The notes under the pieces were generated by a model, which saw nothing but the letters and a program-made list of their open reading frames with translations, had not been told where the DNA came from and searched no databases. Below, in pieces: positions 6,098 to 31,007 of a stretch of 64,000 bases of DNA (positions are counted from its first letter, which is position 1; every line of letters begins with the position of its first letter). The DNA is taken from positions 62,001-126,000 of the forward strand of contig NZ_LBHJ01000007.1 in NCBI RefSeq assembly GCF_001006305.1, read 5' to 3'. Source of the stretch: Silvibacterium bohemicum (GTDB taxonomy: Bacteria > Acidobacteriota > Terriglobia > Terriglobales > Acidobacteriaceae). The translations under genes and the position numbers were made by a program.

Positions 6098-6173
6098 ACC
6101 TGATGCAGTCATACATTAGATTGGCAACCGGATTTTGTCCCCCATTTCCGTACTAGAGGTGCGCGTTTTTTCT

Positions 6174-7070: not shown

Positions 7071-8813
7071 ATGAAGACACCTTTCTTGATGGGCAATGGT
7101 ATCTGCGAGGACAAGTCGCCTAGTCTTCTGGCGGCGCCGCATGGCGGGGGATTGGTCCGGCTCATGGTCCCGCCCGAGCGGCGTCAGGAGCTGATGCGGG
7201 AATCCGCGGAGCTGCCTTCGCTGCAAATTTCCGCGAGCTCATCGGCGAATCTCGCCATGCTGGCCTCCGGCGCATTCTCGCCTCTCGACCGATTCGTAGG
7301 AAAGCGCGAGTGCGAGAGCATCGTGGAGTCTATGCGGCTGACGACCGGCCAACTCTGTCCGGTGCCCATCATGCTGCCTGCGGGGGATCTCAGAAGCATC
7401 GATGCTGGCTCGCGGATCGCTCTGCGTGACCTGCAGAATCGCCCCCTCGCCGTCATGACCGTGGAAGAGGTATTTGAAATTCCGCGCGTCTCCTCATCGG
7501 TAAAACCTAAGCTGATCGACGCAGCGCGAGACTCGGATTCCACCGATCCTCTGGCTTTGAGCGGATCTCTTCAGGTCTTCAACATCCCGGCTGACATTCA
7601 ACTACCCGACATGTGGAAGGACCCGGCGGTGATTCGCGAACAGCTCGCGTTGCTGGGCCGCGATCCTGTGATCGCCGTCGACACCTGGGATTCGCGCGAC
7701 GGCAAGCAGACAGAGTGGCTTCGCAAACTCGCTGAAGAACGGAGAGCTTCTCTGTTGTTCAATCTCGCCGCGGCCGAACCTCGCGTCGATGCCTTCGATC
7801 ATTTTCACTACCTGCTGGCATGCAAAGCAGCCTTCTCGAGATTTTTTTCATCCAGCCAGGCATTCCTGAATTTTGTCCATCTCTCTGCGAATCTCTCCTC
7901 GGAGAATCGCGTGCTGTGGCATGCAATGGTGCACAGGAATTATGGAGCGGGAACTTACGTCATCGACCAGACCCGATGTAGCAATACGGACAGAGCCTCG
8001 AAAAGCTACGCCGGTTTTTCGACACCATCGCAAAAGCTTTTCGAATGCGCCGAGGAACTTGGAGTGGAGCTGATCTTTCGCCGTACATCCCAGACCGAGC
8101 GGAAATTCTCTACCGATCGGAATGGCTCATCTTCGCCAGCTCGGCGTCATAGTGTTTCGCCTGCGTCGGCAAAGAAATCCGCATCGCCTCGCGCGGTGTT
8201 GGGTGTACCTTCTGAGTGGGGCTTGTGCCTGTGGTTCACGGGCCTGCCCAGCGCGGGCAAATCCGCCATCGCAGAAGACCTGCTGATCATGCTGATGGAG
8301 AGCGGCTTGCGGGTAACGCTGCTGGATGGCGACACGGTGCGAACCCATCTTTCCAAAGGTCTGGGATTTTCCCGCGAAGACCGCGACACCAACGTGCAGC
8401 GTATCGGTTTCGTCGCAGCGGAGATCGTGCGGCACCGCGGCGTTGTGCTTTGCGCTGCGGTGAGCCCTTATCGCGAAACGCGCGATGCCGTGCGCGAGAT
8501 GATGCCCGAGGGCTCATTCGTGGAGATTTTTGTCGACACGCCCGTCGAGGAATGTGAGCGGCGCGATGTGAAAGGCTTCTACGCCAAAGCCCGCGCCGGA
8601 CAGTTGAGCCACTTCACCGGCATCGATGATCCGTATGAGCCACCGCAGCATCCCGAAGTCGTCTTGCGTACGGAGCAGACCACGGTGCGCGCCAACGCGC
8701 TGCAACTGATGCGGTTTTTGACTAACGAACAGTATCTCAATCCCATTCCGGAGCGAGACAGCTCCTGGCCTGCTTTGCAGGCGGCTGGGAATTCAGCAAG
8801 ATCAGGGAGATGA
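7071..8813 (+). CDS. ATP-sulfurylase-like (degenerate) / APS kinase fusion
   Basis: A 580-residue fusion. Residues about 35-165 match the ATP-sulfurylase N-terminal (PUA-like) domain, with GAFSPLDRF and MRLTTGQLCPVPIML. The following sulfurylase catalytic region (about 175-345) keeps the overall pattern, including VHRNYGAGTYVI. However, the canonical QxRNPxHxxH loop is replaced near residue 204 by DTWDSRDGKQ, and GRDHAG is replaced near 299 by DQTRCSN. Sulfurylase activity is therefore unlikely. After a Ser-rich linker, residues about 385-560 are a complete APS kinase: P-loop GLPSAGKS at 391-398, DGDTVRTHL, GFSREDRDTN, and KARAGQLSHFTGIDDPYE. The expected product is PAPS. It abuts the PHP gene and has a 1-bp gap to the arylsulfotransferase gene, so the three are likely one operon. 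Confidence 0.85.
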   Translation: MKTPFLMGNGICEDKSPSLLAAPHGGGLVRLMVPPERRQELMRESAELPSLQISASSSANLAMLASGAFSPLDRFVGKRECESIVESMRLTTGQLCPVPIMLPAGDLRSIDAGSRIALRDLQNRPLAVMTVEEVFEIPRVSSSVKPKLIDAARDSDSTDPLALSGSLQVFNIPADIQLPDMWKDPAVIREQLALLGRDPVIAVDTWDSRDGKQTEWLRKLAEERRASLLFNLAAAEPRVDAFDHFHYLLACKAAFSRFFSSSQAFLNFVHLSANLSSENRVLWHAMVHRNYGAGTYVIDQTRCSNTDRASKSYAGFSTPSQKLFECAEELGVELIFRRTSQTERKFSTDRNGSSSPARRHSVSPASAKKSASPRAVLGVPSEWGLCLWFTGLPSAGKSAIAEDLLIMLMESGLRVTLLDGDTVRTHLSKGLGFSREDRDTNVQRIGFVAAEIVRHRGVVLCAAVSPYRETRDAVREMMPEGSFVEIFVDTPVEECERRDVKGFYAKARAGQLSHFTGIDDPYEPPQHPEVVLRTEQTTVRANALQLMRFLTNEQYLNPIPERDSSWPALQAAGNSARSGR

Positions 8814-8814
8814 A

Positions 8815-10584
8815 GTGAGGCTAGACTCCTCGCGCCCCATGGCGCAGATATTTCTTTTTCTTTCAGCCTTCGCATTGGCTGCGATATCGGTTTCAGGATG
8901 CAAGAGCACTGGATCGGCGGGCACAATCGGCGCCGCTCCTTTTGTAACCGAAACAGGCACAGTTGCATCGACCAAGAATCCGCAGGTGGCCCTTTACACT
9001 ATCTTCCCGCTGCGGCCGGCGGATGTTGAGGTGCAGTTTGGACCCAGCACAGATTATTCGCTGCGCACCTGGACGCAAGCCGCCGACGGCAGTCATCCGT
9101 TATCGCTTCTAGTCGCAGGAATGCGCGCCGATAGCGACTATCATCTGCGCGCCGTGGTTCACTTTCACGACGGTCCCACTCTCACCGATGCGGATCACAT
9201 CTTCCACACCAGCCATATCGCCTCGAAGCTGATCCCGGTATTCACGACGCATACAGCTTCTGGCGCAACACCGCAGCCGGGCGTGGAGCTGCTCAATTCT
9301 GCCATCGGATCGACATCGCAGCTGCTTGTGACCGATCTCGATGGGCATGTGATCTGGGGCTATGACTACTCCGATCGGCGCTCGTCGGGAATGGTGCAGT
9401 TCCTGCGCTATGTGCAGGCATCGCTCGATATATTCCCTAATACTTATTACTGGGTGGCCGGCAAATTCGGAGTAACGAGACCGAATGACCAGTCGCCGTC
9501 AGATCCGTGGAAGAACGCGCCGCCGGACCAGAAGTCGGGCACGATCATCAATCCGGCGAAGCTCCTGCCCAATGGTGACGTTCTGCTCGTGATTGGGCTC
9601 ACCGCGCAGTCCCAGCTTCTGGGGCCGCCACCGATTGGCGTTCCCACCGTTCTTCGGGAAATCAATCTGGCCGGTGAAACGGTGAAAGAGCTGCGAGTGG
9701 AAACGCTGAACAGGGAACTCGCGTCGGCTGGCTATTCCAACCTTCATCTGGACGTGATTCACCACGACGTCGCCATTTTGCCGAATGGCCATTGGATCGT
9801 TCTCGCAAACACCACGCGATCTTTTAAGGATCTGCCGGGATATCCCGGCACCACGCATGTCGTAGGAGATGTGTTGGTCGATGTCGATGCCAACTCGCAT
9901 CCGGTCTGGGTGTGGAATGAGTTCGATCATCTCGACGTGCATCGTCACCCGATGGATTTTCCCGATTGGACGCATTCCAACGCCGTTCTGTATACGGCCG
10001 ACGATGGAAACCTCATTGTGTCCAGCCGCAGCCAGAGCTGGGTCATGAAGGTCGACTACCGCAACGGCAAGGGCGAAGGCCAGATTCTTTGGAGAATGGG
10101 GAAGGACGGCGACCTGCGGCTGTTGAACGGAACCGATCCCGTCGACTGGAGCTACGCGCAACACGATCCGGAGATCGTTGGTCAGCGCAGCGCAGGAGTT
10201 TTCCGGCTCTCCATAATGGACAACGGAAACAATCGCGTGATGGCCAACGGCGGCATCTGCGGAACGAAAGGGAATGCTCCCTGCTACTCTTCCGTCAATG
10301 TCTACGAGGTCGACGAGAGCGCCAAAACGGCGAAGCTGGTCTTTCATCAAGCGTACCCGCCGGCTCAATATTCGGTGTGGGGAGGCAGCGTAACACCCCT
10401 CGCCAATGGCGATCTCGATGCCGATCTCTGTTTTCAGCAGCACGCCTCGAATGTCTATGAGTTGACCGTGCCCGATTTATCCACGACTGAGAAGCCCCAG
10501 GTGGTGTGGCAGCTCCACATGCAGGGGACGAATCTCTATCGGACGCAGCGGCTGCCCAGCCTCTATCCCGGCGTGCAGTGGTGA
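8815..10584 (+). CDS. Arylsulfotransferase (ASST family) lipoprotein
   Basis: Bacterial arylsulfate sulfotransferase family protein, 589 residues. The GTG start at 8815 follows the APS-kinase stop by one base, with AGGGA about 6 bases upstream. The N-terminus is a lipoprotein signal with lipobox VSGC, so the mature protein should be membrane-anchored outside the cytoplasm. Family motifs of the six-bladed propeller are clear: VIHHDVAILPNG (His about 316), WTHSNAV (His about 387) followed 18 residues later by Arg in SSRSQS, AQHDPE (His about 450), and MDNGNNR. These match the His/Arg set I recall for E. coli AssT, including the sulfohistidine region. Characterised members use phenolic sulfates rather than PAPS, which sits oddly with the APS kinase upstream. 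Confidence 0.88.
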   Translation: MRLDSSRPMAQIFLFLSAFALAAISVSGCKSTGSAGTIGAAPFVTETGTVASTKNPQVALYTIFPLRPADVEVQFGPSTDYSLRTWTQAADGSHPLSLLVAGMRADSDYHLRAVVHFHDGPTLTDADHIFHTSHIASKLIPVFTTHTASGATPQPGVELLNSAIGSTSQLLVTDLDGHVIWGYDYSDRRSSGMVQFLRYVQASLDIFPNTYYWVAGKFGVTRPNDQSPSDPWKNAPPDQKSGTIINPAKLLPNGDVLLVIGLTAQSQLLGPPPIGVPTVLREINLAGETVKELRVETLNRELASAGYSNLHLDVIHHDVAILPNGHWIVLANTTRSFKDLPGYPGTTHVVGDVLVDVDANSHPVWVWNEFDHLDVHRHPMDFPDWTHSNAVLYTADDGNLIVSSRSQSWVMKVDYRNGKGEGQILWRMGKDGDLRLLNGTDPVDWSYAQHDPEIVGQRSAGVFRLSIMDNGNNRVMANGGICGTKGNAPCYSSVNVYEVDESAKTAKLVFHQAYPPAQYSVWGGSVTPLANGDLDADLCFQQHASNVYELTVPDLSTTEKPQVVWQLHMQGTNLYRTQRLPSLYPGVQW

Positions 10585-17849: not shown

Positions 17850-18001
17850 TGGAAAAGCAGAAAAAATCTCCATTTGTCGCAGATACGGACAGATACAAAA
17901 CGAATATCTACAACTAGATGGGGATTGCTCATCGAATATGCACAAACCTAGAGTCTCCAGAAGAAGATTGGGGCAAGGGCGAAGATTGGCGGAGCGGACT
18001 T

Positions 18002-21000
18002 ATGATGCGCAAGCTGGCTGATCGAATCAAATTGCTTGCGCCAATCGTACTGGTATTACTCTGGCACGCCAACCTCTATGCCCAGCAGCCGGCGATAACC
18101 ACGGCAGCGCGCGTGCATGATTTACCCGCAGACCAGGCGGCCAAAAAGATTCCGGTCCATCTGATTGCTACCGTAACTTATTACGAGCCTTCGGAGCGTA
18201 CGCTGTTTGTCGCGGATGCCAGCGGCGCGGTCTACGTCAAGACGACGCGGTTCTATCCCATTCATCGCGGGGATCTGGTCAAAATCGATGGCTTCACGGC
18301 GATGAGCTTTCGTACCACGGTCGCCCCCGATCCGCACATCGAAGTCATCGGCAAAGGTTCCTTCACCCGAACCAAGATTCAGAGTTATCTCAGTTATCGT
18401 GAATTAATGGCCGGTAAGTGGGATTGCCAGTATGTCGTTCTGCATGGAACGGTTCGTTCCGCGCTGATTGAGCCTCACGCCGACACCAACACTCTGGAAA
18501 TAGAGGTTCTGGTGCCCGGGGGCATTGTGCAGGCCTACCTCCAGGACTTCAGAGGCGTCGATCCGAGTGAGTTGATCGATGCGGAGGTCGAGATCTCAGG
18601 CGTGATCGGCGGTGATTTCAACGCGCAATGGCAGCTCATGCGCAGTGTCGTGTATGCCGCCGATCCGAGTGAACTGCTGATTATCCGCAAGCCTCGGATA
18701 CCGCCGTCTAGCCTGCCTCTCACCGATATCGACGGGGTCATGCAGACCCACTCGATCAAGGATCAATCGCAGCGAGTAAGAGTAAGAGGCACAGTTACCT
18801 ATTATCAGCCGGGCCATGCCATCGTCATCCAACGGGACGGCCGCAGCCTCTTTGCTTCAACTCGCCAGGTCGACCCTATTCCTCTTGGAGCGATCGTCGA
18901 CTTGATCGGCTTCGCGGAAGGCGACGGATATGCGCCGACACTGGCGCAGACCGAAATTATACTTACCGGACAGTCGGAGGTTATTCAACCAACGCCTGTC
19001 ACTTATACGCAAGCAATCGGTGGCACTTATAGCGACGATCTTGTATCGTTGCGGGGAACCGTCATCTCGCAGATGCATGCCAATTCCGCGGATACGCTTT
19101 TGCTGATGGTCGATAACCACGCCGTGACGGCTGTGCTGCAAGGACGCGCGGGAAGCCGTTGGCTGCCGAATCTGCCCACGGGGACCGCTGTTTCGGTGAG
19201 CGGAATATGCCGCGTCACTCCAGGCGCGGACTGGGGAACGCCTGGTATCACGCCAATGCTTTTCCGGCTGGACCTGCGCACTGCGGAGGATCTGCGAGTT
19301 ATCAGCTCGCCCTCGTGGTGGACAGTAGGCCATCTGCTTGTCGCGATAGGCGCACTGGTGGGACTATCTTTCCTCATCGCCATCTGGGCTATCGTGTTGC
19401 GTAAAAGAGTGGCCGACCAGACGGCAACGATCGAGCGCACCGTCCGTTTGGAAAAGGTGCGCAGCCGCATTCTTGAAGCAGTAAATTCCGAAATACCGTT
19501 GGACGAACTGCTCGCCGATATCTGCAACTCGGTGGCGGAGCTGGTAGTCGGAATCCGCTGCTGTTGTTCCATTAAAGATTCGGACAAAGAACAAATCTAC
19601 GGCGCCGAAGCCAGTGCCTGTTACCTGTCGTCCGGCCAGACTGTCTTCACCCAGCCATTGAATGACGCGAGGGGACGGCAGATCGGCACATTCCTGGGGT
19701 GCGGCACCGAGCCGCGGATGCTCTCGCATTTTGAAACAGAGGTGCTTGGAGTGGGTGCGGCCCTGGCCAATCTTGCCCTCAACCAAAGACGGATCTACCA
19801 GGAGTTGAACTACACATCTACGCACGATCAACTCACCTCGCTTCCCAATCGAAGACTGTCGGATCTCAATTTCGAAGTCGCGATTCAAGCGGCGACGCAA
19901 TCGGGAAGCCGCATTGCCGTTGCATACATCGATGTCGACCGCTTCAAACGAGTGAATGACGAGCACGGCCACAAGATCGGCGATCTCTATCTGCAACAGA
20001 TCGCCTGCCGCCTCATTTCCAGGGTCCGCACCAGCGACAAGCTGGCGCGCATCGGCGGCGATGAGTTCCTGCTCATAGCTACTGAGATCGAGAATCTTGA
20101 AGATGCCGAAGCATGCCGGCGCAGGGTCGAGAGCTGCTTCGAGCATGGCTTCATCCTTGACGAAGCACGCGTGTATGGCTCAGCGAGCATCGGCATCGCT
20201 GTTTATCCCGATCATGGTTCCAACGCGGAGGAGTTGAAGCGTCACGCGGATATCGATATGTACTCCGCGAAACGTCGCCGCGGAGCGGATCAGGATTACC
20301 GGCCGTCGGCTGCTGGGGAGACAACAATCTTCTCACCGGCGGATTTAGATGCGGCGCTTGAAAACCGGCAGTTCCAGCTTTATTACCAGCCTCAGTTTTC
20401 CGCGCAGGGTAAATTGCGGGGATTGGAAGCGCTGCTTCGGCTCGACGACCCCATCTTAGGCATCGTAACGCCGGACGCCTTCATCAGTGTTGCCGAGCGC
20501 AACGACATCATCATTCCGGTCGGAGCGTGGGTATTGCGCCAGGCTCTACACGATGCGGCCCAATGGGGCCTGCAAGCGATGGATGGAGTTCGCATGGTGG
20601 TCAACGTCTCGGCTCGCCAGATCGAGCAGCCTGATTTCGCCGGCGATGTTCTCGCGGCGTTGCGGGAGTGTGAAATGCCGGCGAGTTGTTTAGAGATTGA
20701 ACTCACCGAGCGAACGATTGCACGCGATATCGCGCAAGCCATGATCCAACTCAACAAGCTTCACGCCGAAGGCGTGCGTATCTCCATCGACGACTTTGGT
20801 ATGGAACACTCCTGCCTCGGAGTTCTGCACAAGCTGCCGATCGATACGCTGAAAATAGACCGAAGTTTCGTTCGCGCACTGCACAGCGAACCGGCCGTGC
20901 TGCCTATCGTTGAAGCGATTGTGAGCATGGGAAAGACGATGCTCAAGCGAATCGTCGCAGAAGGAGTCGAGACGGAAGAAGATATCCAGGCGCTCGCGAA

Positions 21001-21178
21001 GCTGGGCGAGATGGATCTGCAGGGCTTCTACTTCAGCCGTCCTCAGTCGTTTGAAGTCATCTCCCAAAGACTCGAAGAATGGCGCTCAGGCGTAGTCATG
21101 GGAGTATCGAGACCATGGAATTCCGATCGTCCGAAGCAAGATACACCCGCGATGAGAAAGATGCGGAGAGAGCCGTAG
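18002..21178 (+). CDS. Membrane GGDEF-EAL protein (c-di-GMP turnover)
   Basis: About 1058 residues. Start at ATG 18002 is supported by GGAG at 17991-17994 and an immediate signal peptide ending near LYAQQP; the open frame begins at 17918. Residues about 30-435 form a periplasmic region with repeated OB-like beta segments (HLIATVTYYEPSERTLFVAD and RVRGTVTYYQPGHAIV are internal repeats). A transmembrane helix lies at about 440-465, then a GAF-like stretch. GGDEF is intact (IGGDEF about 684) with I-site RTSD five residues before it. The EAL domain keeps LEALLR, NVSARQ, ELTERT, DDFG, KIDRSF and AEGVET. Both synthesis and hydrolysis of c-di-GMP are possible. Confidence 0.9.
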   Translation: MMRKLADRIKLLAPIVLVLLWHANLYAQQPAITTAARVHDLPADQAAKKIPVHLIATVTYYEPSERTLFVADASGAVYVKTTRFYPIHRGDLVKIDGFTAMSFRTTVAPDPHIEVIGKGSFTRTKIQSYLSYRELMAGKWDCQYVVLHGTVRSALIEPHADTNTLEIEVLVPGGIVQAYLQDFRGVDPSELIDAEVEISGVIGGDFNAQWQLMRSVVYAADPSELLIIRKPRIPPSSLPLTDIDGVMQTHSIKDQSQRVRVRGTVTYYQPGHAIVIQRDGRSLFASTRQVDPIPLGAIVDLIGFAEGDGYAPTLAQTEIILTGQSEVIQPTPVTYTQAIGGTYSDDLVSLRGTVISQMHANSADTLLLMVDNHAVTAVLQGRAGSRWLPNLPTGTAVSVSGICRVTPGADWGTPGITPMLFRLDLRTAEDLRVISSPSWWTVGHLLVAIGALVGLSFLIAIWAIVLRKRVADQTATIERTVRLEKVRSRILEAVNSEIPLDELLADICNSVAELVVGIRCCCSIKDSDKEQIYGAEASACYLSSGQTVFTQPLNDARGRQIGTFLGCGTEPRMLSHFETEVLGVGAALANLALNQRRIYQELNYTSTHDQLTSLPNRRLSDLNFEVAIQAATQSGSRIAVAYIDVDRFKRVNDEHGHKIGDLYLQQIACRLISRVRTSDKLARIGGDEFLLIATEIENLEDAEACRRRVESCFEHGFILDEARVYGSASIGIAVYPDHGSNAEELKRHADIDMYSAKRRRGADQDYRPSAAGETTIFSPADLDAALENRQFQLYYQPQFSAQGKLRGLEALLRLDDPILGIVTPDAFISVAERNDIIIPVGAWVLRQALHDAAQWGLQAMDGVRMVVNVSARQIEQPDFAGDVLAALRECEMPASCLEIELTERTIARDIAQAMIQLNKLHAEGVRISIDDFGMEHSCLGVLHKLPIDTLKIDRSFVRALHSEPAVLPIVEAIVSMGKTMLKRIVAEGVETEEDIQALAKLGEMDLQGFYFSRPQSFEVISQRLEEWRSGVVMGVSRPWNSDRPKQDTPAMRKMRREP

Positions 21179-21418
21179 TTGGAATTCATTGCGCCTATCC
21201 TCGGGCGATCAGGAAATGTAGAAGTCTAATCCAGTGCGATGAACCTCCGTTCGGCCGAACAAAATCAATCTATCGCCCTAACTAGGTGGGTGAACAACCC
21301 CGATCTCAGGTGGTAGTTGCGAGCCTATCCCTCCCGCAAAGGTGATATGGCGCTTCTTCATGAGAAGCCGATAATAGATAGATTGAGGATCGCTCATTTT
21401 TAGCTACGAATTTCCAGA

Positions 21419-24361
21419 ATGTTAGTGTCTCTTCGCAGTTTCGCTGCCAGATGGAGAAGGCTCACCGTGTGCCTTCTCGTTTTCGGCTGCCTGACTTCAT
21501 ACTGCCATGCGCTGGATCCTAACAAAGCTATTACGCAATATGTGCAGTTTGAGCTTAACGACAAGAATGGTTTGCCGCAGAACTCCGTCTATTCCATCGC
21601 TCAAACCAAAGACGGCTATATGTGGTTCGGGACAGAGGAGGGTATCGCCCGTTTCGATGGGCTCCGCGTGACCGTTCTCAATACTCTGAAGAATAAAAAG
21701 CTGGTCGACAACTACATCAATGTACTCACGGCCGCAAGCGATGGAAGTTTGTGGATAGGAACGCGCAGCGGAGTGGGACGTTACAAAGACGGCGTATTCC
21801 GCACCTACTTCACTCCGGGATCGCCGATCCTTGCCATCCATGAGGACCGAAGCCGCCGCATCTGGGTGGGCAGTGCAGAGGGCCTGTACTGCTTAAAGAA
21901 TGAACATATACGCCGCTACACAACGGCCGACAACCTGCCCAGCGCAGAGATCCGCGCCATCGCGGAAGATCGCCGAGGCACCCTGTGGTTTGGAACTCCC
22001 AAAGGTCTGGTCAGCTTGGTAGGGGACCGCTTCACCACTTACACCACGAAAGATGGATTGTCGGGTGACGCGATTCAGAAGCTCACCCCTTCGCGAGATG
22101 GATCTCTCTGGGTAGCGACGCTGGCCGGTCTGGTTCATTGGTCTGGCGGTGTGTTACAGAAGTTGCGGCCATCTGAGTTTCCTCCGCAAGCGCGCATTGC
22201 GTCGATGCTCGAAGACCACGATGGAGTGCTCTGGCTGGCCTTCGAGCACAACGGTATTGCCTCTCTGTGGCAGGGTAAGCTCAAGTTTTACACCATGGCG
22301 GAAGGGTTGCCCTCCGATGAAGTTGGCTATCTCTTCGAAGATCGCGCCCAACACCTGTGGGTAGGCATGTCCGAAGGGGGAGCAGTGGAGCTGCGCGATG
22401 GCCTCTTCAGCAGCTTTGGCAGGCGTGAGGGGCTTTCCTCAAACATGATCTGGAGCGTTCTGCAGGCCCGCGACGGCAGCGTATGGGTAGGCACGAACGG
22501 CAAGGGCCTCAATCACATCGATAAAGACGGGAAGGTCCGTATTTATACCGTCGCCGATGGACTCACGGCCGACACGATTTTCGGTTTGTGTGAGGCCCCC
22601 GATGGAAGCCTCTGGATCGGTCTGGAACATGGCCAGCTCGTTCATTTCGATCGAGGCCGCTTTACTACCTTCCGCGATCCGGCGGCGAAGGATAGTCGCC
22701 TCGCGGCAATTCTTCAGGATCCCAGCGGAGACCTGTGGCTTGGATTTCACGAGGAGAACGGTCTTGTTCGTTTCCACAACGGTCATTTTCAACACTACGC
22801 CGCGCCTGGCCTGGTGAACACGTTGGCCATGGCTCCAGACGGCGCAATCTGGGTAGGCAGCGATCACGCCGGCGTCAGCCGCATGAAGAACGGCGCGATC
22901 ACCACCTACACCACCGCGCAAGGATTGCTCAGTGATTTTGCGCAGGCCGTGTACGTCGACCGCGAGGGCGTGGTCTGGGCCGGCACTTCGCCGGGAGGCT
23001 TGAACCGCATCAAGGACGGACATGTCACCACCTATTCCGTGAACCAGGGTCTCTTCGATCTAACCGTAGGAGCCATCGTCGAGGATGATCTGGGAAACCT
23101 ATGGATGACCTGCAACAACGGGATCTTTCGCGTCACGAAAAAAGAGTTGACCGACTATGCCGAGGGCCGGACGCGATCCATCCACAGCGTGGTTTACGGC
23201 AGCGCCGACGGACTGCGCGAGCCGGAGTGCAATTTCGCAGCCTATCCAGCGGTATGGAAAGGCTCCAGCGGCCGGCTTTGGTTTGCGACCGTGGGCGGCG
23301 TGGCATCGATCAATCCTGATCACATGCCGCGTCTCGTTGCCGAGCCTCAAATTCATATCGAGAGAGTTCTCCTCAATCAGAACCCGGTGCCTTCGAAGGC
23401 GGAAGCCATCGTGGGTATAGGTGGCGACGATCTCGAAGTTCAATTCACCGCACCGGAATTCTCTGACCCGGCGCGAATGCAGTTCCGCTATCGTCTCGAT
23501 CGATTCGATCGCGATTGGGTTTATGTGGCAGGCCGTCGCGAAGCCTACTACACCAAGCTCCCGCCGGGCCGCTACACATTTCAAGTGCAGGCGGCCAACG
23601 GTAGCGAGAGCTGGAGTCCGAACTCAGCCGTCCTTTCTTTTGTCCTGAGGCCGCACTACTGGCAGACAACCTGGTTCAAGGCCGTCTGCACTCTTGTCTT
23701 TCTCTTGCTGTGCATCGTTCTTGCCAAGCTGCGTTTCCATTACTTGGAAGCTCGCAACCGCGACCTCGAGAATCGAGTAAATCTCAGAACGCAGGAGCTG
23801 CAGGAGGCGATCAAGGTCGCGGAAGCGGCGACGGAGGCTTTGCACGAGCAGGCCACCAAAGATTCACTCACTAAACTCTGGAACCGTCACGCCATCTTCG
23901 AGCTATTGGACAAGGAAATACAGCGCAGCAGCCGGGAAAGCTCTCATCTTTGCGTCCTGATGGTCGACGTCGACCATTTTAAGGTGATTAACGATATGTA
24001 TGGCCATCTCACTGGAGACGCGGTCCTGCAACAGGTAGCGGAACGAGTTACAAAACATGCCAGGCCCTACGATTCCATAGGCCGCTACGGCGGAGAAGAG
24101 CTGCTCATCGCGCTTCCGCGGTGCACCCTGCCGGATGGCCTGCGGCGAGCCGAGGAGTTTCGCCACGCCATTGCCGCGCAACCCTTCCTCGTAGGACCGT
24201 ATGTCATCCAGGTCACCTGCAGCATCGGTGTCGCCGTCAGTGAGGGAGACGCAACGGTTGAAGCAATGATTGCCGAAGCAGACTCTGCGCTCTATCAGGC
24301 AAAACGAAGTGGCCGCAATTGCGTCCAGACTCTCGATCCTCCCAGCTCTCGGTTGGCGTAG
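21419..24361 (+). CDS. Two-component-type propeller sensor with GGDEF domain
   Basis: A 980-residue sensor diguanylate cyclase. After a signal peptide (CLLVFGCLTSYCHA), about 12-14 copies of the regulator-propeller repeat (GSLWIGTRSGVGRYKDG, GNLWMTCNNGIFRV) make a double beta-propeller to about residue 610. A Y_Y_Y (Ig-like) domain follows (about 640-735, LPPGRYTFQVQAANG), then one transmembrane helix near 750-770 and a coiled coil. The cytoplasmic GGDEF domain has GGEEL at about 890 and an I-site RPYD five residues upstream. Such propellers in Bacteroides hybrid sensors bind oligosaccharides. It follows the GGDEF-EAL gene by 240 bp. Confidence 0.9.
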   Translation: MLVSLRSFAARWRRLTVCLLVFGCLTSYCHALDPNKAITQYVQFELNDKNGLPQNSVYSIAQTKDGYMWFGTEEGIARFDGLRVTVLNTLKNKKLVDNYINVLTAASDGSLWIGTRSGVGRYKDGVFRTYFTPGSPILAIHEDRSRRIWVGSAEGLYCLKNEHIRRYTTADNLPSAEIRAIAEDRRGTLWFGTPKGLVSLVGDRFTTYTTKDGLSGDAIQKLTPSRDGSLWVATLAGLVHWSGGVLQKLRPSEFPPQARIASMLEDHDGVLWLAFEHNGIASLWQGKLKFYTMAEGLPSDEVGYLFEDRAQHLWVGMSEGGAVELRDGLFSSFGRREGLSSNMIWSVLQARDGSVWVGTNGKGLNHIDKDGKVRIYTVADGLTADTIFGLCEAPDGSLWIGLEHGQLVHFDRGRFTTFRDPAAKDSRLAAILQDPSGDLWLGFHEENGLVRFHNGHFQHYAAPGLVNTLAMAPDGAIWVGSDHAGVSRMKNGAITTYTTAQGLLSDFAQAVYVDREGVVWAGTSPGGLNRIKDGHVTTYSVNQGLFDLTVGAIVEDDLGNLWMTCNNGIFRVTKKELTDYAEGRTRSIHSVVYGSADGLREPECNFAAYPAVWKGSSGRLWFATVGGVASINPDHMPRLVAEPQIHIERVLLNQNPVPSKAEAIVGIGGDDLEVQFTAPEFSDPARMQFRYRLDRFDRDWVYVAGRREAYYTKLPPGRYTFQVQAANGSESWSPNSAVLSFVLRPHYWQTTWFKAVCTLVFLLLCIVLAKLRFHYLEARNRDLENRVNLRTQELQEAIKVAEAATEALHEQATKDSLTKLWNRHAIFELLDKEIQRSSRESSHLCVLMVDVDHFKVINDMYGHLTGDAVLQQVAERVTKHARPYDSIGRYGGEELLIALPRCTLPDGLRRAEEFRHAIAAQPFLVGPYVIQVTCSIGVAVSEGDATVEAMIAEADSALYQAKRSGRNCVQTLDPPSSRLA

Positions 24362-24603: not shown

Positions 24604-25368
24604 CTAGTGGCGGAGAAAAGCCACAACCAGCGCTACGATCGCGACCAACAATGCAAGCAGAGCCATCTTGTTGCTCGTCTTCGGCGGCTCAGCGGGAGCT
24701 GCCACTGGAGCAGCTACAATCACCGGCGGAGGTACCGGCTTTGGCGCCGGCACGGAGACGAACGCGGCGAAGGCCGCTTCGTCCGTATGACTCAGGCTGA
24801 GCGCACCTGCCAGCGGCACTCCATCAAGATTGATACTCGGCTTGCCGCTTTCGTCGTGGAGCACTTCGATCCGCTGCCAATCCACGCCGTAGAGTCCCGG
24901 AATCGCTTTGCGGACCGCCTCCTTGGCGCTCCACATCGCAGCGAGACTGGCCTTCGGAGAAGGCTGCAGATGCGCGTATGCAATCTCCTGCCGCGTGAAC
25001 GTCTGCTGGTAGAAGGGTGCTTCCCAAAGATCGACGGCCTCGGGCATCGCGGCAACGCTCTCGATATCAACGCCGAGACTGACCTCTCCGCTGCCCTTGA
25101 GATTCAACGGAGCAGATGGCGCAGCGACATGACCGTTGCCATTGCTTGAAGCGTGGCCCAGGCCGCACAGACTGCAGAGATCTCCGAAGGTGGCGACTTT
25201 GTAGACTGCGGGATCGGTGATCGAATACTTCGAGCGAAGCATCACTGCCAGTCGTGCGCGAGCCAGCGAGCCAGCCAGGTTTCCATCCAGAGCCGTGGCT
25301 CCGGTAATTCTCGATGCGTCCGTGCGCCCGAGCGTTGCGACAATCTCTTTCAGATCTGTTTCGGTCAT
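24604..25368 (-). CDS. ACP-like / 4'-phosphopantetheinyl transferase / membrane-anchor fusion
   Basis: An unusual 254-residue fusion. Residues about 1-70 look like an acyl carrier domain: LAGSLARARLAVML corresponds to the helix around the pantetheine Ser, with GSL in place of the usual DSL, and TFGDLCSLCG follows. Residues about 95-205 are an AcpS-type phosphopantetheinyl transferase with LGVDIE, FTRQEIAYA, WSAKEAVRKA and LSLSHTDEAAFAAFV, so the metal-binding Asp and Glu/Lys are present. A Pro/Ala linker leads to a single C-terminal membrane helix (LLALLVAIVALVVAFL). It is the last gene of the operon, 4 bases after E2. The enzyme could modify its own or a partner carrier domain at the membrane. 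Confidence 0.75.
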   Translation of the reverse strand: MTETDLKEIVATLGRTDASRITGATALDGNLAGSLARARLAVMLRSKYSITDPAVYKVATFGDLCSLCGLGHASSNGNGHVAAPSAPLNLKGSGEVSLGVDIESVAAMPEAVDLWEAPFYQQTFTRQEIAYAHLQPSPKASLAAMWSAKEAVRKAIPGLYGVDWQRIEVLHDESGKPSINLDGVPLAGALSLSHTDEAAFAAFVSVPAPKPVPPPVIVAAPVAAPAEPPKTSNKMALLALLVAIVALVVAFLRH

Positions 25369-25372
25369 CGCG

Positions 25373-26770
25373 TTAGTATCCTGTCAGGCACACACTGCAT
25401 AAATACTGGTTGGGAACCGATGATTGCAGCAGGTGCTGATCTTTCTCCCTGAGCTCGGCAACGCTGCGCATGCACCGCGAGCAAGACATCTCTTCCTGCA
25501 GCTCCTGCAGTGTGCTCTCATAAGCCTTCATGCGATCCTTCAGGTCGTTCAGGAACAACGCCGCAGTTCGTCCATCGCCCAACTGATGATCGAAGGTGAG
25601 CACCAGCTCATACCATCCGTACTGATGCCCGGGGATGAACTGCTCTGCGCCCACACCGAGAATCGCTCCCTGGTTTTCGCTGATCAGCGGAAAGAATCCG
25701 GAGATCCCCATGCTGGAGAGATCGCTGATGGTGAAGGTGCCGTTGGCGATCTGAGCCGTCGTCAGCTTGTCGTCCAGATAGGCTTCGGTCAGCTCGCGCA
25801 TCTGCGTCGTGATCTCAGCCAGCGACAGGGTATCCGCATTCGGAACGACCGCGACCTTCAGGCCGCGTCCGTCATCCATGGCGAAGCCCACATTCACCTG
25901 CTTGTATTCAAGCCTCATGCCGTCGCGGTAGGTGGAGTTGAACGCGGGGTATTTCCGCAGCAGCCGGCTTACCTCGTAGAGCATGACCGCGGAGGAGTTG
26001 CCGTCGATCTTGCGCTTCGCAATTGCGCGCTGCAATCCGGTGGTGACACAAGTGACCGCAACCGCGCTCTGCACCGCGTTGCTCACTCCCGCGGCCAGAT
26101 TCATGCCCTCGCGGCGCTTGGCCTTTGAGAGCTTGATCTCTTCGTACGGCTGCGTAGGCAGCGGCGACGCTGCTGCTGCAGCACGCGGGGCAGCGTCACC
26201 ATAAGCAGGTGCTGGCGACGGCTTCGCAGCAGCGGGGTTCAAGAAGTCGAGGATGTCCTGCTTGCGGACCGCGGACTTGCCGGCGAAGTCCTTCTCCGTC
26301 AGTCCATGCTCGCGCATCATCTTCACTGCAAGCGGCGAGAAGCGCTGCCGGTATGCGGTCACCGCAGTAAACTCGGCGGCCAATCCCGCTGTGACTGGGA
26401 TGGGCTCACGCGAAGGCATCTGCAGCGGAGCACTCGGACCCTTCTTCGGAGTGTCCTCAGCCTCGGCAATCACCGCGGCCGTTGATGTGTTTGCGCCCTT
26501 CTTCAAGAAGGGGCCACTCGCGGGAGCTTCCGAAGTGATGGTCGCGATCGGCTCCGACACCGGAACGTCCTCGCCCGCCGCGAAGTGATGATTCAGATAT
26601 CCCGCCGCCGGAGAATGCACCTCGATGTTGGCCTTGCTGGTCTCGATCTCCGCCAGCAGGGCATCGGCTTCTACCATTGCGCCGTGGTCGGCCAGCCAGC
26701 GCACCAGCACCACCGACTCGTCGTTAACATTGTCCCGCTCGAGAGCGACAGGGATCGACAGGCTGCTCAT
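25373..26770 (-). CDS. 2-oxoacid dehydrogenase E2 (lipoyl acyltransferase) with cysteine-pair tail
   Basis: Dihydrolipoyllysine acyltransferase, 465 residues. The lipoyl domain (about 1-78) carries the modifiable Lys in EIETSKANIEV. A peripheral subunit-binding domain follows at about 138-175 (SPLAVKMMREHGL). The catalytic domain occupies about 225-410, with His395 and Asp399 in FDHQLGDG. Beyond it is an extra tail with CSRC (430-433) and CSVC (458-461), suggestive of a zinc ribbon and not part of standard E2 proteins. Its ATG overlaps the end of E1. No E3 gene lies nearby. The acyl substrate cannot be read from the sequence. Confidence 0.85.
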   Translation of the reverse strand: MSSLSIPVALERDNVNDESVVLVRWLADHGAMVEADALLAEIETSKANIEVHSPAAGYLNHHFAAGEDVPVSEPIATITSEAPASGPFLKKGANTSTAAVIAEAEDTPKKGPSAPLQMPSREPIPVTAGLAAEFTAVTAYRQRFSPLAVKMMREHGLTEKDFAGKSAVRKQDILDFLNPAAAKPSPAPAYGDAAPRAAAAASPLPTQPYEEIKLSKAKRREGMNLAAGVSNAVQSAVAVTCVTTGLQRAIAKRKIDGNSSAVMLYEVSRLLRKYPAFNSTYRDGMRLEYKQVNVGFAMDDGRGLKVAVVPNADTLSLAEITTQMRELTEAYLDDKLTTAQIANGTFTISDLSSMGISGFFPLISENQGAILGVGAEQFIPGHQYGWYELVLTFDHQLGDGRTAALFLNDLKDRMKAYESTLQELQEEMSCSRCMRSVAELREKDQHLLQSSVPNQYLCSVCLTGY

Positions 26771-28734
26771 CGCACCAGCTCCAATACTTCCTTAATGACG
26801 CGCTCAACATTGGGAAGCACAGCCAGCTCCAGGGGCTTTGCCGAAGGAATGTGCTGCGGATGGGAGTACAGCCGGCGCATCTTGAGACCTCGATCGAGTT
26901 CGGCGAAGGATGCCATCAGCTCCGCAGTGAAACCGCAAAAGCCATGTCCTTCTTCGACCAGCAGGGCGCGCCCGCTGTGCTGCAGCAGAGGCAGCATGGC
27001 CGCCTTTTGCAGCGGATAGAGCTGCATCACGCAGACCACTTCGATTACAAGATCGTGCTCGGTAAAGAGCCGGTCGACGGCCTGCTCCACGCTGGGCAGC
27101 ATTCCGCCATAGCAGACCACCGTAGCGTCGGGCTTCGACTCAGACCTCATGTAGCTGAGAGGGAAGCTGTGCCCGCTGTGGAACCACTTGTAGCCTTCGA
27201 CGGCATCCGGCGAAGCCTTCTCGCCGTAAAGAACCTTGTTCTCGATGACCAGCGTCGGCTTCTGCTCAACCTCGTCACTCAACAGCCGTTCGTATACCGT
27301 GGCCGGGTCGAAGCGCTGATGCAGCGCCAGCACCCGCGTGCCTGGAATGCCCAGCAGATGCTTCTCGAGCGATTGGCTGTGCGTCGGACCGTAGCCGCGC
27401 ATGCCGCCCATCGGCGTTCGCAGTACCAGCGGCGTCTTCACCTGGCCGCCATACATGTATTCGAATTTCGCGGCGTGGTTCAAGATCTGGTCCGAGGCGA
27501 GCATGATGAAGTCGCCGAACATCACCTCCAGCACCGGCTTCATCCCAGCAAGCGCCAGTCCGTTGGTGATACCGGTGATGGCCAGCTCGCTGATCGGCGT
27601 GTTGCGCACGCGTCCCGGAAAAAGCAGACTCAGATCTTTCGTCGCCTTGAACGCTCCGCCGTATGGACCTTCAATGTCCTCGCCCAGCATGACGACGCGC
27701 TCGTCGCGTTCCAGAGCAGCGCGCAGGCCGGCATAGATGCGGTTTACCATGCGTTCGCCGCCGAGGAAGATCGTCTCGGTCCAGGAAGCAACGGGTTCCT
27801 CATGTACTTGCTCGAGCGTGTTTGAGAGCGGAGAAGTCTCCGCTCGCTCGACCGCGGCATCGAGAGTTGCCAGCAGACGCGCTTCGATCGGCCCCATAAT
27901 CTCAGGGAAATCTTTGGCGGCGCGATGAACCAGATCCCGCTCCCAGTAGCTCTCGACCTCCGCCTTCTCGCGGTCGTCGTCGCTCTTGGAATGCGCCATC
28001 AGGCGGTAGGTGTCCACGCGTAGGAAGAGCGGCCTGGTCTCGCTGCGCACATAATCCACGGCCTGCCCCATGGTTTCGATCAGCTGCAGCGGATCCCAGG
28101 TATCGGCGCGCAGGGTGCGAATGCCGAAGGCCTGCGCACGCGCCTCGATATCTCCGCTCAATGTTTGCTTCTGCGAGGTGCTCTGCGCATAGAGATTGTT
28201 TTCGAGCACCACCATCACCGGGATGCCCCACGCCGATGCGATGTTCAGCGTTTCGTATAGAGCGCCTTCACCCAGCGTCCCGTCGCCGACGAAGACCACG
28301 GCGATGTCGCCGGTCCCGCGCAGACGCTTGGCATAGGCGATGCCCGAAGCCACCGGCACAATGCCGCCCTGAATGCCGTTGCTGAAGACGTTGCCGTCGC
28401 AGATATGCTGGCTGCCGCCGCGTCCGCGACAGATGCCGGCTTCGCGTCCCATGATCTCGGCAAAAAGTCCTTCATAGTTGCCGGTGCGGGCCAGGTAATG
28501 CCCGTGGCAGCGATGATTGCTGAAGATGACGTCCCCGGGAGTCAGATGCTCGGCTAACGCTACGCCGGTCCATTCCTGCCCGATACATGTGTGAACGGTT
28601 CCGAAAAGGCGACCTTCGCTGAACAGCTTCAAAAGCCGCTGTTCAAACATCCGAATGCCAAGCGCTTTTTCCAAAAGCCTAGGCTCCGGAAGCAGGGCGG
28701 GCATGAACTCGCTGAGTGCTGGACTATTAGACAT
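26767..28734 (-). CDS. 2-oxoacid dehydrogenase E1, fused alpha and beta subunits
   Basis: Thiamine-diphosphate-dependent E1 in one 655-residue chain. Residues about 15-320 are the alpha part with the ThDP motif VGDGTLGEGALYETLNIAS ending at ENN, and HRCHGHYLA. Residues about 330-655 are the beta (transketolase-like) part with GEDIEGPYGGAFKAT and PISELAITGITNGLALAG. Many acetoin/pyruvate/branched-chain complexes use separate subunits, and fusions also occur in bacteria. It is the first gene of the E1-E2-PPTase operon; its stop overlaps the E2 start by four bases. Substrate preference is undetermined. Confidence 0.88.
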   Translation of the reverse strand: MSNSPALSEFMPALLPEPRLLEKALGIRMFEQRLLKLFSEGRLFGTVHTCIGQEWTGVALAEHLTPGDVIFSNHRCHGHYLARTGNYEGLFAEIMGREAGICRGRGGSQHICDGNVFSNGIQGGIVPVASGIAYAKRLRGTGDIAVVFVGDGTLGEGALYETLNIASAWGIPVMVVLENNLYAQSTSQKQTLSGDIEARAQAFGIRTLRADTWDPLQLIETMGQAVDYVRSETRPLFLRVDTYRLMAHSKSDDDREKAEVESYWERDLVHRAAKDFPEIMGPIEARLLATLDAAVERAETSPLSNTLEQVHEEPVASWTETIFLGGERMVNRIYAGLRAALERDERVVMLGEDIEGPYGGAFKATKDLSLLFPGRVRNTPISELAITGITNGLALAGMKPVLEVMFGDFIMLASDQILNHAAKFEYMYGGQVKTPLVLRTPMGGMRGYGPTHSQSLEKHLLGIPGTRVLALHQRFDPATVYERLLSDEVEQKPTLVIENKVLYGEKASPDAVEGYKWFHSGHSFPLSYMRSESKPDATVVCYGGMLPSVEQAVDRLFTEHDLVIEVVCVMQLYPLQKAAMLPLLQHSGRALLVEEGHGFCGFTAELMASFAELDRGLKMRRLYSHPQHIPSAKPLELAVLPNVERVIKEVLELVR

Positions 28735-28977
28735 TTGGGTAAAAGGTTTAAGAGGACCAAGGAGAATATACCACGGTAAGGACGTTTGCCAATTACCAAA
28801 ATTGGTTACTGCTTTCCCTGATCTTCTCTCCCTTCAACATGCCTTTCTCTTATTTGCTGTGTCGGATGCAATTGGAGAGCGTCAAGGCTGTGCGCGATTG
28901 CGGAGAAAGTAACTTATAGACTTACACATAACCCGGCGAAGCCGCTTAAATTCCAGATACACGAAAACTGGCTCGGC

Positions 28978-29616
28978 TCACTCGATTCGCCGCTCCAGCG
29001 CGACACGCACCAGTTGACTCCTGGTACGAACCCCGGTTTTCGCGAATAACTGTTGCAACACAGCCTTCACATAGCTCTCGGAGATCTCGAGATACACGGC
29101 GATCTCTTTATTGGTGAGGCCTTCGAAGACTCCCTTGAGCACTCCCTGTTCTCTCTCGCTCAGTGAAGGGAAGGCCGGCGTCTGGGTCCGGGTCGCGGTC
29201 GAGCCCACCAGAGAATTGAGGCTGCTTGGGTCCATCCAGGCTTCGCCGCGCGCCACCCGATTGATGGCGGTGATCAATTCTGCCGGAGGGTTGTGCTTGA
29301 GGAAGACGCCAGCCGCACCTTCTTTGAGAACGCGAAACGTGTCGGCGCCCGAGATGCCAGCGGTCACCATGAGGATCTTCCCGGGGAATCCCTGCTGTCG
29401 AAAGCTATGGAGAAACTGAAGGCTGTTTTTCTCGCCAAGATCGAAGTCGAGCAGCACCACATCTACGGAATTTTGCTCGAGCGATTGCAGCGCCTCTTCG
29501 GTGGAGGAAAAATTCCCCACCATCGCCAATCCGCTCTCCGCTTCGAGCAGTCTGGCCAACCCCTCGCGGAAGAGCGTATGGTCGTCAACCAGCAACAGTC
29601 TGATCTTGTCTTCCAT
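28978..29616 (-). CDS. NarL/FixJ-family response regulator
   Basis: A 212-residue two-component regulator. The receiver domain has the acidic pair VDDH at 10-13, phospho-acceptor Asp57 in VVLLDFDL, a Thr in MVTAG and the Lys in FLKHNP. The C-terminal LuxR-type helix-turn-helix covers about 150-210 (LSEREQGVLKGVFEGLTNKE). The gene is 14 bases downstream of the histidine kinase stop, so they form one unit. Its targets are unknown; the divergent czcBAC-like operon 250 bp beyond the kinase is the nearest candidate. Confidence 0.9.
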   Translation of the reverse strand: MEDKIRLLLVDDHTLFREGLARLLEAESGLAMVGNFSSTEEALQSLEQNSVDVVLLDFDLGEKNSLQFLHSFRQQGFPGKILMVTAGISGADTFRVLKEGAAGVFLKHNPPAELITAINRVARGEAWMDPSSLNSLVGSTATRTQTPAFPSLSEREQGVLKGVFEGLTNKEIAVYLEISESYVKAVLQQLFAKTGVRTRSQLVRVALERRIE

Positions 29617-29630
29617 GGGTCACATCCGGG

Positions 29631-31007
29631 TTACTGTACCGCGGCAATCTCCACGATGAAAATCGCGCCCTCATTTGCCGCCTCGTAACGCAGATCTCCT
29701 CCGAAGGACCGCATCAGCGCTCGTGAGAGGTATAAACCCAATCCGGTGGCCTTGGCATTCTGTTGGAAAGGCCGGAACAGTACCTCGGCATTCTTTACGC
29801 CTCCGCCATTATCCGCCACGAAAACCAACACCCGCTGTGCCTCCGCTGTCGCAGTGATCAGCACTCTCGCATTGCGTTGATCCTCCAAGGCGCGCTCGCA
29901 GTTCTTGGTCAGATTCAAAAACACCTGCATGAGGCTGTGCGGATCTGCCCACACCGGAGGCAGATCGGATGGAATCACCCAATCGACCTCAATGTCCTTC
30001 TCGCGGAACGACGGGCCGCTCACGATTCGCAGCTCGTCGAGAAAGGATTGCAGCTCCAGCGATGTGCCTTGTTCTCCGGTCTGGCGGAGCTCCATGGCTG
30101 CGATCTTTTCGAGCGCAAGCACCAGAGTCCCCAGAGCCTCGAAGTCGGCATTCTTCGCCAGCGTTCCGCTTCGCGACAGGTTTTCGTGGACGACGGCAAT
30201 GGCGCCGCAGATATTGCGGATCTCATGGCTGACCGCGCTCACCAGAATGCGCGAGCCCGTCAACAACTGATGCAGACCGGCCTCCTCGCGATCACGCAGC
30301 TCCTCGGAGGCGTCAACGACCATCGCCGCCAGCCTCGGACCGGCACTGGTGCGGTAAGTTGAAAACCAGACGTCGGCAATGAACATCGCGCCGTCGTTTC
30401 TCCGTCCTTTGCACTGCATCACGGTGCGGAACGATTGCTGCCCCGTCCGCAGATCGGGGATATTGACGAGCGAGGGCAGGTAGGGATCGATGGTCTGCCC
30501 GACCAGGCTTCCCGATGGCAGCTCGAACAGCCGATGCGCCGCGTCATTGGCCATGAGCACCGATCCATTCGCATCGGTGGTCAAGATCGCGATGGGACTG
30601 CTTTCAACCAGGACCTCCAGCTGCTCCTCGGCATCCCGCCGCGCCTGATTTTCGCGCTCCAGTTCTTCGACGTGAGCGACCGCCGTGCGGCGGCTGGCCC
30701 CGACTTCGTGCGCGAAGAGTCCAATACCTGCGAAGGCGGCGAGATAGAGCAGGTCGCGAGGCAGCCCCGATTGGGCCGACCACGTCAATCCATCGAAGAG
30801 CTCGGCAAGCAGGGCGCAGACAACTCCCAATAGCGCAACCTGGGCTCGATTCAAGATGCGGCTGGCGAGGACGATCGGCATCAGGTAAAGAAATCCGACC
30901 GGAACTTCGGAATTGATCTTCCAGTCGGCCAGCGCGATCAGGGTGATTAGCGATACCACTTGCAGGAGAACGATGGGGCGCCGGATGTGAAGGGAAGGGG
31001 AGTTCAT
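29631..31007 (-). CDS. Membrane-bound PAS sensor histidine kinase
   Basis: A 458-residue sensor kinase. Residues about 10-100 contain four hydrophobic helices with only short loops, so any signal is probably sensed in the membrane. A coiled coil at 105-130 leads to a PAS domain at about 130-235 (SSPIAILTTDANGSVLMAND). The phospho-acceptor is His261 in AVSHEIRN. The ATP-binding domain has NLTKNCERAL (N box), DNGGG (G1) and GLGLYLSR (G2). The partner regulator follows directly. It is divergent from the RND efflux operon, 248 bp away. Confidence 0.88.
   Translation of the reverse strand: MNSPSLHIRRPIVLLQVVSLITLIALADWKINSEVPVGFLYLMPIVLASRILNRAQVALLGVVCALLAELFDGLTWSAQSGLPRDLLYLAAFAGIGLFAHEVGASRRTAVAHVEELERENQARRDAEEQLEVLVESSPIAILTTDANGSVLMANDAAHRLFELPSGSLVGQTIDPYLPSLVNIPDLRTGQQSFRTVMQCKGRRNDGAMFIADVWFSTYRTSAGPRLAAMVVDASEELRDREEAGLHQLLTGSRILVSAVSHEIRNICGAIAVVHENLSRSGTLAKNADFEALGTLVLALEKIAAMELRQTGEQGTSLELQSFLDELRIVSGPSFREKDIEVDWVIPSDLPPVWADPHSLMQVFLNLTKNCERALEDQRNARVLITATAEAQRVLVFVADNGGGVKNAEVLFRPFQQNAKATGLGLYLSRALMRSFGGDLRYEAANEGAIFIVEIAAVQ

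Follow-up and report, generated by a model that had tools for sequence, protein, structure and literature searches.

In 2012, Peng et al. reportedly described NapB/NapD/NapC and QncN/QncL/QncM as two-component transketolase-acyl carrier protein (ACP) systems, which are said to act through a lipoyl intermediate. According to two papers that cite these enzymes, NapB/NapD and QncN/QncL place a C2 unit from a ketose phosphate on an ACP (PMC7570522; PMC6335953). The scleric acid cluster has genes for an ACP, E1 alpha, E1 beta, E2 and a phosphopantetheinyl transferase (PPTase) that are assigned to the glycolic acid unit, and the role of SclQ1-Q4 is proposed there from homology to Qnc (PMC6335953). 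A carrier protein is also loaded in the Dlt route, in which DltC is acted upon successively by AcpS, DltA and DltB (PMC9338922). Here, we analyzed a window of 64,000 nucleotides from Silvibacterium bohemicum (contig NZ_LBHJ01000007.1, positions 62,001 to 126,000), in which a three-gene operon for E1, E2 and a carrier-PPTase fusion was confirmed on the minus strand through its open reading frames (ORFs) and Pfam. We consider it reasonably probable that this triad generates a C2-acyl-ACP, probably glycolyl-ACP, and that it probably does so for the acylation of an envelope glycan.

E1 is a single chain of 655 aa with alpha and beta parts fused (26767..28734, minus strand, as are all features of the triad given below by window position). 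It matched E1_dh, Transket_pyr and Transketolase_C in Pfam, and its thiamine diphosphate (ThDP) motif, GDG...N, was intact by eye. E2 (25373..26770, 465 aa) shares a 4-bp overlap with E1. The ORF, Pfam and a structure model of moderate confidence (mean predicted local distance difference test score 70.8) divide it into a lipoyl domain, a subunit-binding-like segment recognized by eye, an acyltransferase domain and a Cys tail, with the Pfam matches being Biotin_lipoyl and 2-oxoacid_dh. The lipoyl domain (residues 5-79; 26534..26758; Pfam, alignment and model) has a VNDE motif near its start and the lipoyl Lys46 in ETSKA, while the acyltransferase domain (residues 208-419; 25514..26149; Pfam and alignment) has His395 in DHQLGDG. 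Both the lipoylatable Lys and the catalytic His are, therefore, present. The third gene follows after a gap of 4 bp and encodes a fusion of carrier protein, PPTase and hydrophobic helix (24604..25368, 254 aa; ORF, Pfam and model). No E3 was found in the triad operon; a single E3 match above the curated cut-off is located at another place in the genome (C4:187069). The arrangement described in the initial annotation, a fused E1, an E2 and an ACP-PPTase protein that overlap or nearly touch with no E3 among them, was thus borne out.

The kinship of E1 and E2 sets this operon apart from canonical dehydrogenases. Among plasmid records, the best E1 match was RenH from the renieramycin cluster (45.5% identity over 97%), followed by actinobacterial loci, and RenI, an E2, is encoded directly after RenH. 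In the first E1 tree, 10 ACP-type rows (six triads, RenH and three actinobacterial loci) were split from eight canonical rows with support of 100/99, and the first E2 tree separated 11 ACP-type rows from five canonical ones (100/97). The same division was seen in enlarged trees (E1, 16 vs. 9 rows, 100/99; E2, 15 vs. 6 rows, 99/98) and in the largest E1 tree (19 vs. 9 rows, 100/99). The triads formed one clade in the first trees (E1, 97/97; E2, 80/94), and this monophyly was lost once L083, L084, L097 and L098 were added. The window's E1 and E2 thus fall on the natural-product side of the trees, which was made up of RenH/RenI and three E1/E2 sets from actinobacteria. The window's E1 also carries the marker residues of the ACP-loading branch (L35, T49, Q109, S118, Q122, T153, Y160, Q184 and T451). 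These nine columns were fixed in 16/16 ACP-type rows and the residues were absent from 9/9 canonical rows, although the columns were picked on the same 25 rows on which they were counted. The rows added later, L096, L097 and L098, each had 8/8 of the signature residues other than L35.

The initial annotation had suggested that E2 hands its acyl group from lipoyl to a pantetheine arm instead of coenzyme A (CoA). This idea is well supported by the phylogeny, and it matches the reported reaction of enzymes with the same plan, since NapB/NapD and QncN/QncL are described as loading a C2 unit on an ACP. By analogy with those enzymes, we regard acyl transfer from lipoyl to ACP as likely, with some confidence taken off by the lack of a visible free carrier gene in two of the four natural-product relatives. 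Such a gene lies directly before E1 in L043 and L044. In L043 (Streptomyces NBC_01136), polyketide synthase (PKS) and condensation-domain genes are followed by consecutive genes for ACP, E1 alpha, E1 beta and E2, and in L044 (S. cattleyicolor) the gene immediately preceding E1 alpha is a PP-binding one. The small ORFs of L042 and L045 yielded no free carrier. One further plasmid, from Streptomyces fungicidicus, has a canonical-type E1a-E1b-E2 set followed by an 81-aa carrier protein, located among universal stress genes (L048:5013-8555).

Since Pfam is blind to the carrier domain of the third gene product, this domain was tested with a structure model. Residues 1-70 (25159..25368; model and fold match) form an ACP-like four-helix domain, with helices at 3-14, 34-48, 53-57 and 61-67 in the AlphaFold model. 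Ser34 (codon 25267-25269), the predicted pantetheine site, opens the second long helix, as in ACPs, and is invariant in 9/9 homologues. The Foldseek and VIA match lists for the whole fusion were dominated by the PPTase domain. H. pylori holo-ACP (5h9h) was the sole carrier among the best 50 solved entries (rank 50, Z 10.4, root-mean-square deviation 2.0, 70 residues aligned), and for helical bundles a Z under about 13 can reflect mere arrangement. The AcpS-type PPTase domain (residues 96-205; 24754..25083; Pfam and fold match) gave a Pfam ACPS match at residues 97-191 (49.7 bits), and residues 91-208 have the fold of AcpS enzymes and of the PPT domain of fungal fatty acid synthase (Z about 15), the latter being the closest match (Z about 15.7). 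D101, K149, E150 and K154, which correspond to the Asp, Glu and Lys residues of the AcpS active site, are invariant in 7/7 homologues. From the fusion itself, we infer that Ser34 is pantetheinylated by the attached PPTase domain, that is, that the protein would pantetheinylate itself. The model also has a C-terminal hydrophobic helix (residues 234-253; 24610..24669), which the initial annotation did not mention. It is predicted to be a tail anchor, with insertion suggested by its residues, and the L036 and L098 fusions lack it.

A second feature absent from that annotation is the CxxC-x24-CxxC tail of E2 (Cys430, 433, 458 and 461; 25388..25483; alignment), which is zinc-ribbon-like. The tail was present in 9/9 E2s paired with a carrier-PPTase fusion and in 0/14 other E2s. 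The E2 of G307 has no tail and falls inside the same E2 group as the fusion-paired E2s (97/94), but has a separate ACP. The simplest reading of this pattern is that the tail probably docks the carrier protein. It may also bind zinc, which is a guess from the spacing of the Cys residues.

The triad is rare and patchy, yet conserved as a unit. Nine triad loci were found in all: the window, G033, G662 and G560, and five from a scan with one genome per species. The scan loci come from Acidobacteriaceae (L033 and L036), Phycisphaerae (L034), Armatimonadetes (L035) and Candidatus Sulfopaludibacter (L037), and the nine thus span Acidobacteriota, Planctomycetota and Armatimonadota. L037 is a contig of G210 and L036 a contig of G457, each counted once. 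In 9/9 loci a Cys-tailed E2 is directly followed by the carrier-PPTase, and E1 precedes in eight, the E1 of L035 being off the contig. The arrangement in the window is not due to chance because its order and coupled spacing recur in the eight further loci. Conservation of the triad in relatives, which had been named beforehand as the point on which the idea could fail, therefore held, within this limited distribution. In a family sample, E1 had a match in 8/398 genomes, one being half an E1, and none was found in the eight other genomes of the window's genus listed in that sample. An ACP-type E1 was present in nine rather than 10 of 399 class genomes, since G088 (E 2.5e-124) is canonical, with 0/8 signature residues, and was left out of the count. 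Among the matches listed for the fusion, 3/299 class genomes had a match over most of its length and the others matched the PPTase part only. All but three of these matches start at query residue 66 or later and, therefore, diverged fusions may be missed. Among the matches listed from open-licence PMC, no publication dealt with the triad, with an E1/E2 that is paired with a PPTase-ACP fusion, or with lipoyl-hexapeptide acyltransferases.

These data bear on the plainest alternative, that the operon encodes an ordinary 2-oxoacid dehydrogenase (E1-E2) which makes acyl-CoA with a shared E3, next to a carrier-PPTase that is a mere neighbor. The intact E1 and E2 domains, His395 with its DG motif and the E3 available in the genome would suit such an enzyme. 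However, both E1 and E2 lie outside the canonical rows of the trees, the carrier-PPTase recurs after E2 across three phyla, and the Cys tail tracks the fusion. This explanation is very improbable, and we rejected it on account of the trees and the conservation of the unit. The initial annotation had also held that a PPTase has no place in a normal dehydrogenase operon. It is an odd partner there, but not an unprecedented one, as the scleric acid cluster includes a PPTase (PMC6335953).

The use of the acyl group was approached through 17 loci of the ACP-type branch, surveyed outside the four plasmid loci. The partner of E2 was the carrier-PPTase fusion in nine. In another four (G307, G347, G296 and G015), a carrier gene directly follows E2, which accounts for 4/4 readable acidobacterial loci with a full E2 but without the fusion; the carrier gene of G307 (L083) scored 19.5 bits in Pfam against a cut-off of 20.8. 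In two loci (G044 and G484), the lipoyl domain forms one protein with a hexapeptide acyltransferase, and this protein had no 2-oxoacid_dh match. Of the remaining two, G276 (L086) is cut by the contig end inside E2, and G472 has an E1 half only, without E2. The two lipoyl-hexapeptide fusions (L084:9132-10754 and L097:8530-9780, both minus strand) adjoin an ACP-type E1, and that of L084 is WcaF-like. Both are E2 proteins with a replaced catalytic domain.

A glycan-type acyltransferase was adjacent or fused in 7/17 loci, as an adjacent hexapeptide protein in four, a fused one in two and a DltB-like MBOAT in one. The four hexapeptide genes lie next to E1 or the triad in G033 (L031), G457 (L036), G560 (L098) and G472 (L099). 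In G472 (L099:1316-3296), the E1 alpha half, 71% identical to that of G033, overlaps the hexapeptide transferase gene and is possibly a decaying or repurposed copy. In G307 (L083:6536-12924), E1, E2 and ACP are followed by a gene that neither Pfam nor NCBIfam recognized (SGNH-like by eye) and then by MBOAT. The best NCBIfam model for this MBOAT was DltB, at 178.8 bits against a cut-off of 375, and it was, therefore, not filed as DltB. The L083 operon resembles a Dlt operon in which E1/E2 replace DltA. The surroundings of two loci contain polysaccharide-type genes, with glycosyltransferases, flippase-like, O-antigen-ligase-like and polysaccharide deacetylase genes around the G033 triad, and glycosyltransferases, a flippase-like gene and a deacetylase around the G484 locus. 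L034 is surrounded by asparagine synthase, methyltransferase, epimerase and LPG_synthase_TM genes. Ten loci (the window, L033, L034, L035, L037, L096, L085, L086, L087 and L088) had no adjacent hexapeptide or MBOAT gene by eye and partly by Pfam, and the genes near L085, L087 and L088 that looked GNAT-like by eye had no match wherever Pfam was applied to them. The G033 genome (4.5 Mb) has hexapeptide matches in some ten places, which puts the chance of one in a flanking gene at roughly 0.5% per locus, assuming about 3,900 genes. This figure overstates the case because polysaccharide clusters are richer in hexapeptide genes. The two lipoyl-hexapeptide fusions are independent of the estimate.

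The hexapeptide neighbors had their best scores, all below cut-off, against EpsC and WcaF-type acetyltransferases, and the best NCBIfam matches of the window's E1 were pyruvate dehydrogenase subunits, also below cut-off. Both findings would fit the same machinery with a 2-oxoacid as the E1 donor, for instance pyruvate giving acetyl, and with acetyl- or another acyl-ACP as the product. In contrast, the clade of E1 includes RenH and the E1s of actinobacterial natural-product loci, the reported analogues of which use a ketose C2 unit, and acetyl-CoA would suffice for acetylation without a dedicated ACP. A 2-oxoacid donor is, in our estimate, somewhat unlikely.

Another possible explanation is that the triad supplies a C2-acyl extender or starter in trans to the nonribosomal peptide synthetase (NRPS) or PKS of its own genome, as reported for naphthyridinomycin and quinocarcin. 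Its close kin RenH and L043 are located in NRPS/PKS-type clusters, and the window's genome has 24 condensation matches, including those of a large NRPS cluster at C11:371-434 kb and others at C1:861-866 kb; both places also have ketosynthase domains. The open frames of the C11 cluster reach 7899 aa, and C1:861-870 kb is a second condensation/ketosynthase locus. Supply in trans is conceivable because the window has no acyltransferase neighbor and the NRPS clusters lie on other contigs. However, 0/24 condensation matches are on C23, the window's contig, and, therefore, no NRPS belongs to the same cluster. A condensation match was found in the window's genome, G033 and G560, and none in G662, G457 and G210, which are 92-96% complete drafts. 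The lack of a match in three of the six triad genomes searched speaks against NRPS supply as the general role, and several related loci carry glycan-type acyltransferases instead. Overall, this role is improbable. The initial annotation's proposal that the operon primes a lipid or secondary-metabolite pathway is unsupported at the locus. The large ORFs of the window, surveyed by eye, showed no linked polyketide or fatty-acid pathway, the condensation and ketosynthase matches being on other contigs, and several relatives point to glycan-type acyltransferases.

Several observations weigh against a C2-acyl-ACP generator that serves glycan acylation. No acyltransferase or polysaccharide gene lies beside the window's triad (ORFs, with the flanks by Pfam) or beside those of L033, L037 and L096. 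The window's E2 retains the canonical Asp, its DHQLGDG meeting the HxxxDG motif of canonical dehydrogenases; this Asp is kept in 3/17 ACP-type E2s, the window's included, compared to 6/6 canonical ones. The carrier domain has no Pfam PP-binding match, lacks the usual Asp before Ser, and shows a modest profile match to the stand-alone ACPs of related operons (probability 75.4, E 2.4e-5). The ACP2 subgroup and L098 lack K458/H459, residues shared with RenH and the actinobacterial E1s, and, thus, the donor may differ within the branch. L048 has a carrier gene after E2 and yet groups with the canonical rows, which means that the branch is not recognizable by an adjacent ACP alone. Also, the membership of Nap, Qnc and Scl in this branch is one that we infer by analogy.

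We, therefore, propose the following function for the triad as a C2-acyl-ACP generator. The ThDP-dependent E1 would cleave a two-carbon unit from its donor, which is most likely a ketose phosphate that yields glycolyl, and would reductively acylate the lipoyl arm of E2. The acceptor of the acyl group from E2 would then be the 4'-phosphopantetheine attached to Ser34 of the carrier rather than CoA, with the Cys tail probably serving as the dock. The pantetheine arm would be installed by the fused PPTase on its own carrier domain, the C-terminal helix would keep the loaded carrier at the inner membrane, and the dihydrolipoyl arm would likely be reoxidised by the genome-encoded E3. Finally, an acyltransferase would probably use the acyl group to decorate an envelope polysaccharide. 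The case for glycolyl as the acyl group is evenly balanced. Glycan acylation as the final use in the window itself, for which the neighborhoods of the relatives speak, is plausible but stands a little short of an even prospect. "Dehydrogenase" may be a misnomer for these enzymes because the reported Nap/Qnc enzymes draw their C2 unit from a ketose phosphate. More tentatively, the branch could represent an envelope-glycan route fed from central carbohydrate metabolism. In such a route, E1/E2 would charge a self-pantetheinylating, membrane-tethered ACP as an ATP-free counterpart of DltA-DltC, the sister lipoyl-hexapeptide fusions would skip the ACP, and the Cys tail would be a docking module that co-evolved with the carrier-PPTase. 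If the reading is true, the lipoyl-to-ACP reaction, which is familiar from a few antitumour antibiotic pathways, would become a wider module of environmental bacteria that includes a self-activating carrier at the membrane. If the link to glycans is also true, this would be a new acyl activation for polysaccharide modification without ATP or CoA, and the lipoyl-hexapeptide fusion, needing E1 and one protein, would be a directly testable minimal enzyme.

Around the operon, a pattern scan gave a weak candidate sigma-70 promoter upstream of E1 (TTGGCA-16-TATATT; 28765..28792, minus strand), with two such sites found in the region vs. 1.3 expected by chance. A conserved tie to the upstream histidine kinase/response regulator pair (28978-31007) was considered and rejected, as inspection by eye did not place the pair next to the triads of L031 and L033. 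L096 has a different regulator pair, a sigma-54-type regulator and kinase about 1.5 to 4 kb downstream. A two-component system may, therefore, regulate the triad, but no gene pair common to these loci was shown. Convergent with the triad, a GGDEF-EAL protein adjoins a Reg_prop/Y_Y_Y propeller-GGDEF sensor (17918-24361). Elsewhere in the window, a PHP-domain gene, an ATP sulfurylase-APS kinase fusion and an arylsulfotransferase (ASST) lie consecutively at 6135-10584.

Compared to known systems, the triad shares the E1/E2 domain plan and lipoyl chemistry with the pyruvate and branched-chain 2-oxoacid dehydrogenase complexes. It differs from them in its clade, the lack of an operon E3, the carrier-PPTase partner, the Cys tail and a different start of the lipoyl domain. 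RenH/RenI (MK748463) are closest by sequence, with the fused E1, an E2 immediately after it and the same clade. RenI, however, has no Cys tail and an HRVLTG motif, and the Ren locus is an NRPS cluster with no free carrier among its small ORFs. The Dlt route is alike in its PPTase-activated carrier, its cytoplasmic loading and its use of an MBOAT, which receives the acyl group and serves an envelope polymer; the related G307 locus combines E1, E2 and ACP with a DltB-like MBOAT. There, the ligase DltA loads D-alanine, whereas the acyl group of the triad would come from ThDP-lipoyl chemistry. SclQ1-Q4 and SclP, compared by their description, share the parts list of the triad, PPTase included, but belong to a Streptomyces natural-product cluster in which each of the five has its own gene. 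The Nap and Qnc systems, likewise compared by description only, resemble the triad in having a ThDP E1, a lipoyl E2 and a dedicated ACP on which the C2 unit ends, and the passages of the citing papers that describe them name no E3, like the E3-less triad. In those descriptions, E1 beta is fused to E2, the ACP is separate and the user is the NRPS of the same cluster, whereas the triad has E1 alpha and beta fused, an ACP joined to a PPTase and a hydrophobic helix, a Cys-tailed E2 and an unlinked NRPS.

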